DNA of 64,000 nt, from the NCBI RefSeq assembly GCF_023701745.1, contig NZ_JAJOZB010000001.1:5865501-5929500 (forward strand). Reading direction: 5' to 3'. Positions 29,786-35,893 of this stretch are shown piece after piece; the stretch's first letter is position 1; every line of letters starts with the position of its first letter. This stretch comes from Streptomyces sp. RKAG293 (GTDB lineage: Bacteria; Actinomycetota; Actinomycetes; Streptomycetales; Streptomycetaceae). A model generated the notes under the pieces. That model saw only the letters and a program-made list of their open reading frames with translations. It was not told the origin of the DNA and did no database searches. Position numbers and translations under genes: made by a program.

Positions 29786-30568
29786 TCAGTCGGTGGGGCG
29801 GCTCAGCCTGGCGACGAACTTGTACCGGTCGCCGCGGTAGACGGAACGCACCCATTCGACCGGTTCACCCGTGGTGTCGATGGAGTGCCGGGACAGCATC
29901 AGCATCGGCAGGCCGACGTCCGTGCCGAGCAGGCCGGCCTCGCGGGGAGTGGCCAGCGAGGTCTCGATGGTCTCCTCGGCCTCGGCCAGCCGTACGTCGT
30001 AGACCTCCGCCAGCGCCGTGTACAGGGAGGTGTACTTGGCGAGGCTGCGGCGCAGCGCGGGAAAGCGCTTCGCCGACAGATGGGTGATCTCGATGGCCAT
30101 CGGCTCGCTGTTGGCGAGCCGCAGCCGCTCGATGCGCAGCACCCGGCCGCCGGTCTTCATGTCGAGGAGGCCGGCGAGCCGGTCGTCCGCGGTGATGTAG
30201 CCGATGTCCAGGAGCTGTGACGTGGGCTCCAGGCCCTGGGCGCGCATGTCCTCCGTGTACGAGGTGAGTTGCAGTGCCTGGGAGACCTTCGGCTTGGCGA
30301 CGAAGGTGCCCTTGCCCTGGATGCGTTCGAGGCGCCCCTCGACCACCAGTTCCTGCAGGGCCTGCCGCACGGTGGTGCGGGAGGTGTCGAATTCCGCCGC
30401 GAGCGTGCGCTCCGGCGGGACCGGTGTGCCGGGCGGCATCGTCTGCGTGATGTCCAGCAGATGTCGCTTGAGGCGGTAGTACTTGGGCACACGCGCGGTG
30501 CGCCCGGCGGCGCCCGCCGTCTCCGGCACGTCCGATGCCGGCGTGCCGCCGCCCCCGTCGCTGTCCAT
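29786..30568 (-). CDS. dasR: GntR/HutC-family regulator DasR
   Basis: 260 residues from ATG 30568, preceded by GGGAG. The N-terminal winged helix ([47 protein letters not shown]) and the C-terminal UTRA effector domain are near-identical, from memory, to S. coelicolor DasR. DasR binds dre sites and is released by glucosamine-6-phosphate and related amino-sugar phosphates; it links chitin and N-acetylglucosamine supply to development and antibiotics. It is divergent from dasA, with dre sites in the shared region. Confidence 0.96.
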
Positions 30569-30730
30569 GACGTCTACTCCCGACTGCTGTCGTGCTGCCG
30601 TCACCGGCTCCTCCGTCTATCGCGGCTCACATGGTGGCACGGGCTGCTGTGGTCCAGGGAGGCGATGGCAGGTGACGTCCCCCTCAGGTGTCGGTCCGAT
30701 AACAGACCTAACAGCGCTTCTTATACACCC

Positions 30731-30789
30731 TTGACACCCCTAAAGGTCTAGGCCAAGCTGCGCTCACTGGTCTAAACCATTAAAGACCA
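30731..30789 (+). promoter_or_regulatory. dasA promoter with two DasR (dre) sites
   Basis: The dre consensus is ACTGGTCTAGACCACT. The site ACTGGTCTAAACCATT (30766-30781) matches 14 of 16. A weaker site AAAGGTCTAGGCCAAG (30742-30757) matches 11 of 16. A lone AGACCA half-site follows at 30784-30789. TTGACA (30731-30736) with CAAGCT 17 bases downstream could be the promoter, placing the weak site in the spacer and the strong one just after the transcription start. The rest of the 320-base dasR-dasA gap shows no further clear element. Confidence 0.85.
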
Positions 30790-30888
30790 ATCCCAGACCC
30801 ACAAGCAGGACGCGGCATTTGCCGTGTCTCGCGGCAGCCGACTTTTCGGGCGGTGGGGGGTGGTTTCGGGCATCCTGAGGAGGGTGGC

Positions 30889-32184
30889 ATGAAGCGCAAG
30901 CTCATCGCGGCAATCGGTGTCGCGACCATGATCGCGGGCGTCGCAGCGTGTGGCAGCGACAAGAAGGACGACACGGCCGCGAAGCCGGCGGACCGCAAGG
31001 ACACCGTGACCGTCTGGCTCATGAGTGACGCCCAGAGCACCTGGCCGGAGCTGGTCAAGAGCGTCAATGACGAGTTCAAGGCGAAGTACCCGAACGTCAC
31101 CGTGAAGGTGCAGTACCAGCAGTGGAGCGACAAGGTCCAGAAGCTGGACGCCGCGCTCTCCGGCTCCAGCGCTCCGGATGTCGTCGAGCTCGGCAACACC
31201 GAGACCATGACCTACATCCTCAACGGTGCCCTCGCCGAGGTCGACAAGACCAAGTTCGAGAATTCGGCCACCTGGATCAAGGGCCTCGAGGACACCTGCT
31301 CGTACCAGGGCAAGCTCTACTGCGTGCCGTACTACGCCGGTGCCCGTGTGGCGATCTACAACGCCGATGTCTTCAAGGCCGCGACCGGCTCCGCCGACAT
31401 GCCGAAGACCGAGACCGACCTGACCGCCGCGCTGGACAAGATCGCGGCCGCGAAGGGCGCCGACAAGGCGTACTCGCCGCTCTACCTGCCGGGCGAGTAC
31501 TGGTACGCGGCCATGTCCTACGTCAAGGCGTACGGCGGCCAGATCGCCAAGTACGACGGCGGCAAGTGGACCGGCACCCTGTCCTCCCCGGAGGCCCAGG
31601 AAGGTCTGAAGCACTTCATCGAGCTGGTCAACAAGTACAACCACGGTGACAAGACCAAGGACGAGGCGGACCACGCCGCGGTCATGGCCCAGGAGAAGAC
31701 CGCGCTGATCTACGGCAACGGCTGGGAGTCCGGCAGCGTCGTCGACACCAAGGCGCCCGGCAACCCGAAGCTGAAGGACGCCATCAAGACGGCCGGTATG
31801 CCCGGCCCGAACGGCAAGGCGCTGCCGTCCTTCATCGGTGGCTCGGACCTCGCCGTCGTCGGCAAGTCCAAGGTCCAGGACCTCGCCAAGGAGTGGATCG
31901 CCAGCTTCACCAGCGAGAAGTCCGAGGCCGTGCTGGCCGGCAAGAAGATCCTCCCGAACAACACCAAGCAGCTCGAGCCGCTGAAGTCGGACCCGGCCAC
32001 CGCGCCGATCGCCAACGCGGTGCCGGACGCCTGGTTCACCCCGATCGCTCCGGGCTGGGCCACGATCGAGAAGCAGAACATCCTCAAGAACATGCTGCTC
32101 GACATCATCAAGGGCAAGTCCATCGCCGACGCCACCAAGGCGGCCGACGACAAGATCAACTCGCTGATCAACAACGCCTCCTGA
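30889..32184 (+). CDS. dasA: Chitobiose-binding lipoprotein of the Das ABC transporter
   Basis: 431 residues from ATG 30889 with GAGGAGGG upstream. The signal peptide (MKRKLIAAIGVATMIAGVAAC) ends in a lipobox Cys. The rest is an ExtracellularSolute-binding family 1 fold (VTVWLMSDAQSTWPELVKSVNDEFKAKYPNV). DasA captures N,N'-diacetylchitobiose outside the membrane. It is under a strong dre site. A 309-base gap with a fold-back element separates it from dasB. Confidence 0.94.
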   Translation: MKRKLIAAIGVATMIAGVAACGSDKKDDTAAKPADRKDTVTVWLMSDAQSTWPELVKSVNDEFKAKYPNVTVKVQYQQWSDKVQKLDAALSGSSAPDVVELGNTETMTYILNGALAEVDKTKFENSATWIKGLEDTCSYQGKLYCVPYYAGARVAIYNADVFKAATGSADMPKTETDLTAALDKIAAAKGADKAYSPLYLPGEYWYAAMSYVKAYGGQIAKYDGGKWTGTLSSPEAQEGLKHFIELVNKYNHGDKTKDEADHAAVMAQEKTALIYGNGWESGSVVDTKAPGNPKLKDAIKTAGMPGPNGKALPSFIGGSDLAVVGKSKVQDLAKEWIASFTSEKSEAVLAGKKILPNNTKQLEPLKSDPATAPIANAVPDAWFTPIAPGWATIEKQNILKNMLLDIIKGKSIADATKAADDKINSLINNAS

Positions 32185-32223
32185 TCCCAGGCTCCGCCCG
32201 TGGGGGGCGGGGAAACAGGCGCA

Positions 32224-32421
32224 GGCCGTGTCTGACAAATGGCGCCGTCCGCCCGGAGGGCGGGGCCCGGGGCGTCTGGTGCGTGCGATCGCAAGGCGGA
32301 GGGTCGTCCTCGTACCGGGGTACGTGGATGAGCCCGACAACGCAGCGAGCGTGCGTGCCAGGCGCCCCGGGCTGGGGGCACCCCCAGCGGTAGCTGGGGG
32401 AGGGATTTGTCAGACACGGCC
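32224..32421. mobile_element. 198-bp fold-back MITE between dasA and dasB
   Basis: It is bounded by perfect 17-base inverted repeats GGCCGTGTCTGACAAAT (32224-32240) and its complement (32405-32421). The inverted symmetry continues inside: GCCCGGGGCGTCTGGTGCGTGCG (about 32265-32287) pairs with the region about 32351-32372 with few mismatches. A further hairpin (GCTGGGGGCACCCCCAGC) lies at about 32371-32388. There is no coding capacity. No clear target-site duplication was found. Similar sequences are dispersed in Streptomyces genomes from memory. Confidence 0.8.
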
Positions 32422-32493
32422 CGGGCGGACGGTCCACGGTCGTGGGCCGTCCGCCTCCGCACCCGGCATGGACGACGAAGAAAGGTCAGCGAG

Positions 32494-33501
32494 ATGAGTG
32501 CCGCCGACACGCATGCCACCGAGCCGCTGGAGCGGGGCCTCGTGGAGAGCCCGCCGCCGGCTCAGGACCGGCCCGCATCCGGGCGGGGGGCCCGCCGCCG
32601 GCCGGCCACCCGGCAGAACAGAACCCTGCCGTACTTGCTGATCACTCCGGCCCTGGTGGTCATGGCGGGCGTGCTCGGCTGGCCGCTGATCGACACCGTC
32701 GTGCTGTCCTTCCAGGACATGAGACGCAACAACCTGTGGGGCGGTACAACACCCCCGTGGGTCGGTCTCGACCAGTACACGACGATCCTCGGCGACTCCG
32801 AGTTCTGGCACGTGTTCATCCGCACGGTCGTCTTCGTCGTCGTCTGTGTCTTCTTCACCATGCTGCTCGGGCTGCTCATAGCGATGCTGCTGCAGCGGGT
32901 GTCGCCCTGGCTCCGGGTGATGATCACCAGCGCGATGGTCGCCGTCTGGGCGATGCCGCTGCTGGTCTCCACCTCGGTCTTCAAGTTCATGTTCGACTCG
33001 GACTACGGGTTGGTCAACGAGCTGCTCAGCAAGCTCCCCGGGGTCGACTACGCCGGGCACAACTGGTTCCTCAACCCCACCTCGGGGCTGGCGATCATCG
33101 CCGCCCTGGTGGTCTGGGCGGCCATCCCGTTCATCGCCATCAGCCTGCACTCGGCGCTCACCCAGGTGCCCAAGGAGCTGGAGGAGGCGGCCAGGATCGA
33201 CGGCGCCAGCGGCTTCGGCATCTTCCGGTTCGTCACCTTCCCGGTGATCAAGCCGGTCTTCGTCATGACGACGACGCTGTCGATCATCTGGGACTTCGGT
33301 GTGCTCGGCCAGGTGCTGCTGATGCGCAACAACCACCCGGAGCCGGACTACCAGCTGCTGGGCCTCTACTCCTTCACCCAGGCGTTCACCAGTAACTCCT
33401 TCAGCACGGGTGCCGCGATCTCCATCATCACCGTGGTGATGCTGTCCGGCGTCTCCGTCTACTACCTGCGCCAGCTGATGAAGATCGGAGAGGTCGAGTG
33501 A
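32494..33501 (+). CDS. dasB: Das ABC transporter permease 1
   Basis: 335 residues from ATG 32494, with AAAGGT upstream. A roughly 45-residue polar N-terminus precedes six membrane helices. The MalF-type EAA loop reads ELEEAARIDGASGFGIFRFVTFPVIKP, which contacts an ATPase. No ATP-binding gene is in the cluster; the shared ATPase MsiK, encoded elsewhere, energises Das in Streptomyces. The stop overlaps the dasC GTG (GTGA). Confidence 0.92.
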   Translation: MSAADTHATEPLERGLVESPPPAQDRPASGRGARRRPATRQNRTLPYLLITPALVVMAGVLGWPLIDTVVLSFQDMRRNNLWGGTTPPWVGLDQYTTILGDSEFWHVFIRTVVFVVVCVFFTMLLGLLIAMLLQRVSPWLRVMITSAMVAVWAMPLLVSTSVFKFMFDSDYGLVNELLSKLPGVDYAGHNWFLNPTSGLAIIAALVVWAAIPFIAISLHSALTQVPKELEEAARIDGASGFGIFRFVTFPVIKPVFVMTTTLSIIWDFGVLGQVLLMRNNHPEPDYQLLGLYSFTQAFTSNSFSTGAAISIITVVMLSGVSVYYLRQLMKIGEVE

Positions 33502-34352
33502 CTACCGCCGCCAAGGTCACCTACAAGAGCAAGAAGAAGAACCGCACCGGCTGGAACATCCTCGGCCTGCTCACCTTCGTGGTCATGGGCTTCCCGGTCT
33601 ACTGGATGGTCATCACCGCGCTGCGGCCCAGCACCGAGATCCTCAGCTACCACCAGAAGCTCTGGCCGAGCTCGATCACGTTCGACCAGTTCAACCGGGC
33701 GATGGACATGCCCAACTTCTGGGACAACGTGAAGAGCAGCGTGATCATCTCGCTGTTCAGCGTCGTCATCGCCATCGGCGTCGGACTGCTCGCCGCCTAC
33801 GCGCTGGGCCGCTTCCACTTCTGGGGCCGCCGCGGGCTGATGATCACGCTGCTGCTGATCCAGATGATCCCCGGCACGTCGATGCTGATCCCCATCTACA
33901 TCCAGCTCAACGACATGGGCGGGCTGAACCAGTACTGGGGCGTCATCGTCGTGTACGCGGCGACGACGCTGCCCTTCTCGGTGTGGATGCTGCGCGGATT
34001 CATCGTCAACATCCCCAAGGAGCTGGAGGAGTCGGCCATGGTCGACGGCTGCAGCCAGATGGCCGCCTTCCGCCGCGTGGTCTTCCCGCTGCTGGCCCCG
34101 GGTCTGGTCGCCGCCTCGATCTACGCCCTGATGACGGCCTGGAACGAATACCTTTTCGCTTACGTCCTCCTCCAGGACAACGACAAGTACACCCTCAGCA
34201 TTTGGCTGCTGAACTTCACCGGCCAGCGCGGTACCGACTTCGGCGCGCTGATGGCGGGCTCCATCCTGGTGGCCCTGCCCGTGGTGATCTTCTTCGTCAT
34301 GGTCCAGCGCAAGGTCGCTTCCGGTCTGACCGCCGGGGCGGTGAAGGGATGA
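33498..34352 (+). CDS. dasC: Das ABC transporter permease 2
   Basis: 284 residues from GTG 33498. MalG-type permease with six helices and the EAA loop ELEESAMVDGCSQMAAFRRVVFPLLAPG. The end of the protein reads MVQRKVASGLTAGAVKG, a family hallmark. It forms the channel with DasB. The stop overlaps the ATG of dasD (ATGA), so dasBCD are translationally coupled. Confidence 0.93.
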   Translation: MTTAAKVTYKSKKKNRTGWNILGLLTFVVMGFPVYWMVITALRPSTEILSYHQKLWPSSITFDQFNRAMDMPNFWDNVKSSVIISLFSVVIAIGVGLLAAYALGRFHFWGRRGLMITLLLIQMIPGTSMLIPIYIQLNDMGGLNQYWGVIVVYAATTLPFSVWMLRGFIVNIPKELEESAMVDGCSQMAAFRRVVFPLLAPGLVAASIYALMTAWNEYLFAYVLLQDNDKYTLSIWLLNFTGQRGTDFGALMAGSILVALPVVIFFVMVQRKVASGLTAGAVKG

Positions 34353-35893
34353 CCGTCATTTCTACCGACTCCGCCCCCGACACTCTCACTCAGGACGCGC
34401 TCGCCGTCCTGCAGCCGGGTTTCATCGGGACCACCGCGCCCGAGTGGCTGCTGCAACGGCTCGCCGAGGGTCTCGGCTCCGTGGCGCTGTTCGCCCGGAA
34501 CATCGAATCGCCCGAGCAGCTGTCCGCGCTCACCGCGCAGTTGCGCGCGGTACGGGCGGACGTGCTGGTCGCGGCCGACGAGGAGGGCGGTGACGTCACC
34601 CGCCTCGAAGCGCGGACCGGCTCGTCCTTCCCCGGCAACCTCGCGCTCGGCGCGGTCGACGACGCGGACCTGACGCAGGAGGTGGCGGCGGAGCTCGGCC
34701 GCCGGCTCGGCACCTGCGGGGTCAACTTCAACTGGGCGCCGTCCGCGGACGTCAACTCCGACCCCGGCAACCCGGTGATCGGCGTACGGTCCTTCGGCTC
34801 CGACCCGCACCTGGTCGCGCGCAACACCGCCGCGTACATCACCGGTCTGCAGTCCGCCGGGGTGGCGGCCTGCACCAAGCACTTCCCCGGCCACGGCGAC
34901 ACGGCCGTCGACTCGCACCACTCGATGCCCAACATCGAGGTCGGTCTGCAGACCCTGCAGGACCGTGAACTGGTGCCGTTCCGGGCCGCCGTCGCCGCCG
35001 GGACCAAGGCCGTGATGAGCGCCCACATCCTGGTGCCGGCCCTCGACCCGGACCGGCCCGCCACGCTCAGCCCCAGCGCGCTCAACGGGCTGCTGCGCGC
35101 GCCCGCCGCGGCGGGCGGCCTCGGTTACGACGGACTCATCGTCACCGACGGCATCGAGATGCAGGCCATCGCGGCGACGTACGGCATCGAACGCGGCACC
35201 GTCATGGCGCTGCTGGCCGGCGCCGACGCCATCTGTGTCGGCGGGGGTCTCGCCGACGAGGAGACCGTGCTGCGGCTCCGCGACGCCATCGTGCGTGCGG
35301 TGCGCGACGGTGATCTGCCCGAGGAGCGGCTCGCCGACGCCGCGGCCCGGGTGCGGTCGCTCGCGGCATGGACGGCCGAGCGGTCGGGTGCGGCGGAGGG
35401 GACCGCACCCGACCCCGAGGTCGGCCTCATCGCGGCCCGCCGGGCCGTGCGCGTGACCCGTACGGAGGAGTACGTACCGATCGCGACCGCGCCGTACGTG
35501 GCCGCCTTCACCCCGGTCGCGAACATCGCGGTCGGCGCCGAGACGCCCTGGGGGGTCGCCGCGGAATTGGAGCGGCTGCTGCCCGGCACCGTGACCGGCA
35601 CCTTCCGTGCGGCGGACGCCGAGGACGGCGGGGTGGACGCCCTCTGCGCGAAAGTGCTGCAGTCCGCGTCCGACCGTAGGATCGTCGCAGTGGTCCGCGA
35701 CGTGCACCGCCACGCGTGGATGGCCGACGCACTGGACGCCCTGCTCGCCGCCCGGCCGGACACGGTCGTGGTGGAGATGGGGGTGCCCCAGGCGCCGCCG
35801 TCCGGCGCGCTGCACATCGCGACCCATGGCGCTGCCCGTGTGTGCGGGCGAGCAGCCGCGGAGGTCATCGCCGGCAAGGAAGCCGGGGTCTGA
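34349..35893 (+). CDS. dasD: Glycoside hydrolase family 3 beta-N-acetylglucosaminidase
   Basis: 514 residues from ATG 34349. NagZ-like GH3 signatures: DEEGGDVTRL, KHFPGHGDTAVDSHH (His-Asp dyad loop) and GLIVTDGIEMQAIA (nucleophile Asp). No signal peptide, so it acts in the cytoplasm, splitting imported chitobiose into N-acetylglucosamine. It is coupled to dasC and so belongs to the DasR regulon. Confidence 0.92.
   Translation: MTVISTDSAPDTLTQDALAVLQPGFIGTTAPEWLLQRLAEGLGSVALFARNIESPEQLSALTAQLRAVRADVLVAADEEGGDVTRLEARTGSSFPGNLALGAVDDADLTQEVAAELGRRLGTCGVNFNWAPSADVNSDPGNPVIGVRSFGSDPHLVARNTAAYITGLQSAGVAACTKHFPGHGDTAVDSHHSMPNIEVGLQTLQDRELVPFRAAVAAGTKAVMSAHILVPALDPDRPATLSPSALNGLLRAPAAAGGLGYDGLIVTDGIEMQAIAATYGIERGTVMALLAGADAICVGGGLADEETVLRLRDAIVRAVRDGDLPEERLADAAARVRSLAAWTAERSGAAEGTAPDPEVGLIAARRAVRVTRTEEYVPIATAPYVAAFTPVANIAVGAETPWGVAAELERLLPGTVTGTFRAADAEDGGVDALCAKVLQSASDRRIVAVVRDVHRHAWMADALDALLAARPDTVVVEMGVPQAPPSGALHIATHGAARVCGRAAAEVIAGKEAGV

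Follow-up and report, generated by a model that had tools for sequence, protein, structure and literature searches.

Genes and features of the das locus

The window analysed here is a stretch of 64,000 nucleotides from the genome of Streptomyces sp. RKAG293. It carries the das genes, and an element of 198 bp lies between dasA and dasBCD, 39 bp past the dasA TGA and 72 bp ahead of the dasB ATG, where the preliminary description of this DNA had placed it. The gene names given in that description agree with the Pfam domains, SBP_bac_1 for dasA, BPD_transp_1 for both dasB and dasC, and GntR with UTRA for dasR. In S. coelicolor, the dasABCD genes are described as forming an operon controlled by DasR (PMC12370203). 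The features of the locus are the following.

29786..30604, minus strand: dasR, GntR/UTRA regulator (Pfam GntR and UTRA)
30889..32184, plus strand: dasA, chitobiose-binding protein (Pfam SBP_bac_1; start by a simple gene caller, longest ORF from 30853)
32224..32421, plus strand: whole non-autonomous element (MITE), from sequence, repeats, copies and core model
32224..32240, plus strand: left terminal inverted repeat (TIR), 17 bp, perfect, GGCCGTGTCTGACAAAT, by sequence reading
32241..32265, plus strand: subterminal stretch with a small hairpin, common to many, not all, end types (fold, alignment)
32266..32371, plus strand: conserved core hairpin, 106 nt (model R1: 114.6 bits on the plus strand, 37.9 on the minus strand)
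32373..32402, plus strand: nested 30-bp hairpin repeat (sequence, fold, copy comparison)
32405..32421, minus strand: right TIR, 17 bp, exact reverse complement of GGCCGTGTCTGACAAAT, by sequence reading
32424..32455, plus strand: native dasA-dasB intergenic hairpin, outside the element (repeats, fold, relatives)
32494..33501, plus strand: dasB, permease (Pfam BPD_transp_1)
33498..34352, plus strand: dasC, permease (Pfam BPD_transp_1)
34349..35893, plus strand: dasD, named by operon position; ORF from the simple gene caller

The element is a palindrome that is read on the plus strand, an orientation taken from its core. Direct reading of the sequence bore out the 198-base length and the perfect 17-base ends first reported for it. 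In a repeat search the extended terminal arms measure 22 nt with 91% identity, and an inner inverted pair (32265-32292 and 32345-32372) measures 28 nt with 79%. No gene lies inside the element and the ORFs that overlap it are merely mechanical. The predicted RNA fold of 32200-32450 has a free energy of -171.2 kcal/mol; the shuffles average -129.2 (z -8.8), and none of the 200 is as stable. The strongly self-complementary fold proposed earlier is thus retained, but the single continuous hairpin proposed with it is not, since separate hairpins lie at 32373-32402 and 32241-32265; a perfect single hairpin for the whole element is ruled out by the nested repeat at 32373-32402.

This nested repeat (TGGGGGCACCYCC...GGGGGAG) is found at differing positions in other MITE copies (L002, L003, where it occurs twice, L004, L042, L109 and L110), and many short matches in the RKAG293 genome are to this part of the element query. 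In L021, a close copy from a related genome, a short CAGGC stretch takes its place. The 30-bp hairpin repeat of the das copy appears to belong to a second family of small repeats. There is also a 12-base perfect complement between 32245-32256, in the left part of the element, and 32421-32432, across its right border; the two could allow an alternative pairing that involves the native hairpin, though the complement may be due to chance.

Copies and empty sites

The RKAG293 genome (9.27 Mb, three contigs) has das-type ends at five places, including the das copy. Two of the other copies are of 223 bp, one is of 168 bp with one mismatch in each end, and one has a truncated right end. The core model R1 gives 17 matches in this genome, where at most 19 candidates were scored. 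Of the 35 genus genomes, 34 (RKAG293 included) contain matches to the element at E 1e-5, some of them short. In Streptomyces sp. DvalAA-14, exact 15-mers of the end are present 25 times in forward and 25 times in reverse orientation, and many of the element matches are copies with equal scores.

DasA has matches in all 35 genus genomes, and in the 27 das loci that were read from the 34 other genomes the element is missing every time; the window alone has it. The gap between dasA and dasB is 32-194 bp in 26 of these 27 loci. In the remaining one (L087) the search pattern for a dasB start had no match, and its sequence shows no element. Streptomyces fildesensis INACH3013, the nearest relative by DasA (99%), has a gap of 114 bp compared with 309 bp in the window. 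At the insertion site the window reads GGCGCA|element|CGG, where S. fildesensis reads GGCGCTGCGAGC and another relative (G021) reads GGCGCTGAGGGA.

With multiple copies, empty sites in relatives and a partner insertion sequence with nearly the same ends (see below), the earlier identification as a MITE holds; what was found is the opposite of a structure fixed at one place in all relatives with no copies elsewhere. By comparison of these loci, the das element is confirmed as a MITE that has moved in the past.

A partner insertion sequence

The preliminary description had predicted that a Streptomyces genome would hold a transposase element with matching ends, and such an element (L113) is present in DvalAA-14. 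It is 1275 bp long, bounded by GGCCCTGTCTGACAAATGATCA and GGCCGTGTCTGATAAATGATCA, and its ends, GGCCCTGTCTGACAAAT and GGCCGTGTCTGATAAAT, each have one mismatch with the ends of the das element, from which it is separated by species. It is flanked by CTA and TAG, compatible with a duplication of TA or of CTAG. Its orfA matches PF13340 (DUF4096; 8e-31) and its orfB PF01609 (DDE transposase; 9e-21) and also PF13586; the two ORFs (1447-1908 and 1761-2372) overlap in a -1 relation by coordinates, and about 330 bp precede orfA. The IS427 group of the IS5 family is described as having two overlapping ORFs, with 2-bp duplications in most members of a published table (PMC3281130, Table 2). L113 is assigned to the IS5 family, IS427 type, a group name based on the layout given in that paper and on the general features of the family.

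The partner search looked for inverted repeats around PF13340 at 30 loci in six genomes. Besides L113, with its das-type ends, three loci (L124, L126 and L127) show related types of end, and the rest have unrelated inverted repeats or none that convince. L124 and L126 are further insertion sequences whose ends resemble other MITE end types. S. fildesensis has only the right half of an L113-like insertion sequence, 93% identical and near a contig start. In a scan of genome contigs, the L113 end was found in 21 stretches from Streptomyces, Kitasatospora, Streptacidiphilus, Microtetraspora, Actinomadura and one MAG. Both ends are present in two of the 21, L173 (which is L113) and L175, and several others are cut off by the end of a contig.

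A search of the RKAG293 genome itself revealed no partner with das-type ends; besides the MITE copies, its only other ends within three mismatches are four single sites, each at three mismatches. Within the 3-kb locus of each of these single ends no convincing facing end was seen (up to five mismatches, at a distance fitting an insertion sequence); one of them, L060, has a same-strand site at five mismatches that looks unrelated. The das copy may therefore no longer be mobile in its own genome and may be stranded there.

Target sites and stop codons

Insertion sites were compared in 83 elements. From 115 loci screened, a script set aside six without the core and five without TIRs, and 21 of the remaining 104 were removed by hand. 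Four of these were duplicates under another id (L096, L102, L108 and L111), and in the others the element was truncated or chimeric or its automatically placed ends were judged incorrect; L006, also removed, may have been usable. CTAG flanks both ends of 61 elements, one end of 16 and neither end of six, the das copy among the last, in a test that allows the CTAG to lie a few bases away from the called end. Cases of TTA|element|TAG, CTA|element|TAA and TTA|element|TAA also occur, and these flanks suggest that YTAR is preferred as a target and that TA is the portion duplicated. Further one-sided flanks (CTG, CAG, GAG) may have arisen by later mutation.

By the simple gene caller, which was checked on the das region alone and recovered dasA-dasD there, 60 of the 83 elements adjoin a stop codon (30 on the left, 28 on the right and two on both sides). 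All 62 abutting gene ends, from 61 gene families, read CTAG. Control CTAG sites lie at stops in three of 16 cases in the window and five of 23 in the flanks (8 of 39 together, against 60 of 83; Fisher p 8e-8), and in 22 of 170 cases in loci fetched around transposases (p 6e-21). CTAG sites of the das loci (one of 89 at a stop) were left out of these tests because the loci are orthologous. With TA duplicated and G as the first base of the element, the TAG stop would be preserved. Homologous genes ending in CACTAG are followed by an element in L002, L287 and L289 and stand without one in L283, L284, L285 and L288.

The neighbouring genes of the 83 elements are convergent in 40 cases, tandem in 37, divergent in four and undetermined in two. 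Orientation is unbiased, 30 against 28 relative to the abutting gene and 20 against 17 relative to tandem genes, and this absence of preference gives no support for a host role of the core in cis. Such placement fits a parasite that spares genes, an argument that has been made for pneumococcal repeats (PMC3049150), and does not by itself imply a host function. The das copy departs from most of its siblings; its flanks (GCA|element|CGG) show no CTAG and no clean duplication, it abuts no stop, and its site is inside an operon, between tandem genes.

A conserved core with variable ends

Elements with quite different ends have their centre in common. Compared in pairs, 25 representatives have an identity of 0.59 in their ends but of 0.82 in the core arms (alignment A1, with 25 of 27 representatives, L004 and L229 being omitted, drawn from the 61 elements of 150-182 bp among the 83; a second alignment, A2, omits L251). 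R1, a covariance model of the core with 106 positions, matches 142 of 200 genomes of the family in 11 of 17 genera (E 1e-5), and 64 of 296 genomes of the class in 18 of 115 genera (E 1e-4), of which 24 are from the same family and 40 from outside it. The best match per genome was studied at 29 class-level loci, from 29 of the 63 other matching genomes. In 26 of the 29 the core lies between inverted repeats (at least 11 of 12 positions), compared with one of 28 when the right flank is an unrelated one. YTAR flanks both ends in 11 of these 26, one end in eight and neither in seven.

In 53 core sequences, aligned by fitting to the model, which favours pairing, 96.4% of the cells are paired and 29 of the 35 pairs have two-sided changes. 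None of 500 shuffles reaches the observed pairing values, and when the structure is slid by 1-3 columns only 26-49% of the cells pair. The cells that are not Watson-Crick comprise 268 G.U and 16 A.C. On a tree, about 39 single-step changes lead from Watson-Crick to GU and 12 to AC (p 2e-4), and about 47 lead from GU back to Watson-Crick, as common as GU gains. The pair columns 19-22/94-97 swap between two wobble arrangements with no loss of the wobbles, and column 20-96 alternates among GU, UG, GC, CG and UA with one of 53 sequences unpaired. Almost no variation is seen in the internal loops, GCAAGGCGGAG and CGACAACGC. As the alignment was fitted to the model and wobble columns are in part shared by descent, the support is less than the raw counts suggest. 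The asymmetry of G.U over A.C is not expected of a palindrome that acts only as double-stranded DNA, and the simplest reading of these alignments is that the core covaries as one strand and that its sense strand acts single-stranded.

Searches against Rfam 15 gave no match to the element and one match at chance level in 30600-34500, outside it; in eight MITE loci one tRNA and one match below threshold were found, both outside the elements. These searches rule out a known Rfam family for the element. A kink-turn was considered for the internal loop and dropped by eye, since its bulge and G.A pairs do not seem to follow one another as in a kink-turn.

The ends behave differently from the core. 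In 97 elements (the 83 and 14 of the 29 class-level loci, hand-picked for clear ends) each of three end types occurs with both types of central loop. The end GTCTGACA is found 28 times with loop I or another loop and six times with loop II, TTTTRGAAG 24 times and once, and YGAAAG seven times and once, so that two of the combinations rest on one element each. Only the loop types were used in this comparison, the stem classes being coarse. These sequences indicate that ends and cores reassort, for which either exchange between copies or repeated capture would account. Deletion derivatives without a core and with both ends also occur, three of 67 bp with CTAG at both ends (L093-L095, in DvalAA-14) and one of 72 bp with CTAG at one end (L098), which suggests that the core is dispensable for insertion. 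No partner insertion sequence for the end type TTTTGGAAG was found among the matches listed in two genomes (G004 and G026). One of these, G004 (loci L193-L212), has 126 exact ends of a type other than that of the das element, GTGTTTTGGAAGT, a large burst for which no partner was found among the matches listed.

Mechanism and alternative explanations

The reading that we hold with good confidence is that of a MITE moved in trans by an IS5-family enzyme into a C-TA-G target, with a core selected as a single-stranded fold. An IS427-type transposase of this family recognising GGCC(G/C)TGTCTGA(C/T)AAAT would move 32224-32421 in trans, and the matching ends suggest that the enzyme is of the L113 type. 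Insertion would occur at C-TA-G with TA most likely duplicated. The element begins with G and would restore a TAG stop, so that elements collect at gene ends. The 106-nt core would be selected as a single-stranded fold on one strand, presumably as RNA rather than single-stranded DNA, and would persist as the ends change from one IS5-type partner to another. The effect on das mRNA is most likely modest, a putative stabilisation of the dasA 3' end or some polarity on dasBCD. Points that count against this reading are the das copy's own flanks, the failure to find a partner in RKAG293, the core-less derivatives, the unbiased orientation, the fitting of the 53-row alignment to the model and the frequency of changes from GU back to Watson-Crick.

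The core could instead be selected as single-stranded DNA, forming a hairpin to which a protein of transposition or replication binds, in the manner of the REP hairpins of IS200/IS605-type enzymes. The lack of orientation preference relative to host genes fits this, as does the usual position of the core inside TIR-bounded elements (26 of the 29 class-level loci). However, the partner identified has TIRs and a transposase of the DDE kind, core-less derivatives have inserted nevertheless, and G.T pairs in DNA are weaker than G.U pairs in RNA. Selection on DNA is judged rather unlikely.

The preliminary description had proposed that the element regulates the das operon, its hairpin blocking or slowing readthrough or protecting the dasA 3' end, with DasA far in excess of DasBC. 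A very stable fold does lie in the dasA-dasB gap, and the sense strand of the core is on the dasABCD transcript, 39 nt past the dasA stop. Yet a scan of 32150-32520 for hairpins with a T run, which covers T-run terminators, gave none on the plus strand; both of its matches are on the minus strand, and a canonical intrinsic terminator on the plus strand is ruled out. The insertion is present in one of 28 das loci. Moreover, the window has an intact native hairpin at 32424-32455, to which the element adds a second, larger hairpin upstream, and the native one is kept in close relatives that are without the element. It was identified in all ten relatives with at least 77% identity in DasA, in nine by local fold and in L072 by eye; its arms differ between relatives. 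A group-wide excess of DasA would therefore not depend on the element, and the native hairpin is a candidate for the ordinary control of dasA relative to dasBCD. A regulatory role of the element in the das operon is accordingly judged unlikely.

Descent from one founder palindrome with asymmetric mismatches, with no selection on structure, is improbable. Five wobble columns of alignment A1 (60, 65, 66, 69 and 70) hold most of the G.U cells of that alignment, largely by common descent, and the 53-row alignment leans to the model. These points are opposed by the two-sided changes in 29 of 35 pairs, by the switching pair types of column 20-96, and by the inferred 39 changes to GU against 12 to AC. 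Finally, the element might be no more than a fixed intergenic hairpin that belongs to the das operon. A native hairpin does exist at 32424-32455, but for the element itself this explanation is ruled out, with hardly any probability left, by its absence from all 27 other das loci read and by its copies elsewhere.

A bolder extension of the preferred reading, which we put forward as speculative and doubt at present, is that the core is a functional structured RNA spreading through Actinomycetes by taking on the ends of one IS5-type transposon after another, the bacterial equivalent of a SINE. If this were true, the RNA module rather than the ends would be what persists, the core might aid its own mobilisation or act in trans, and insertion at TAG stop codons would keep the element harmless.

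Novelty and comparison with known systems

The main text of a 2024 review of prokaryotic MITEs (PMC10969869) is without the terms Streptomyces, actinobacter-, Frankia and mycobacter-. In a literature search covering titles, beginnings of abstracts and open-licence papers no description of the family was found, and it may be in print elsewhere. The elements thus form a large and apparently undescribed actinomycete family in which the ends vary and the folded core is constant. What began as a curiosity of one locus becomes a class-wide mobile family with testable parts, namely a candidate transposase, a stop-restoring target and a conserved strand-specific fold outside the Rfam models. If the fold is RNA, the question arises why a parasite without genes should maintain an RNA structure through changes of its ends; should the das copy affect the output of the operon, S. 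fildesensis is a ready natural control.

REP sequences are not known to have such TIRs and DDE partners, and they are set apart from the das family by description. ERIC sequences resemble the family in being small, interspersed and structured, with some of them transcribed. The same likeness holds for BOX, whose small interspersed repeats have extensive predicted RNA structure and are in some cases transcribed (PMC3049150). BOX is modular (boxA/B/C), whereas the das family has a single core of 106 nt with near-invariant internal loops and is found in Actinomycetes; here too the comparison is by description. The likeness to REPINs and REP sequences lies in their being small palindromic repeats spread in bacterial genomes (PMC3116915, PMC3733652).

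On the side of the partner, L113 is like the IS427 group in its two overlapping ORFs and its kind of transposase, and TA would agree with the 2-bp duplication listed for most members (PMC3281130). It differs from the IS427 members listed there, which are of 832-865 bp, in its length of 1275 bp with about 330 bp before orfA.

The closest counterparts are MITEs mobilised in trans, such as the pneumococcal RUP, which is proposed to use IS630-Spn1 (PMC3049150). Like these, the das family is short, non-coding, bounded by TIRs and multicopy, shares its ends with an insertion sequence and often lies between convergent genes. Unlike them, it has ends that match IS5/IS427-type elements, many end types are found on its one core, across many genera, and its insertion is mostly at stop codons, which it restores. 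A MITE with a structured transcript is already known as a kind; what appears to be new is the variety of ends on one conserved, strand-specific, class-wide core, together with the stop-codon target.
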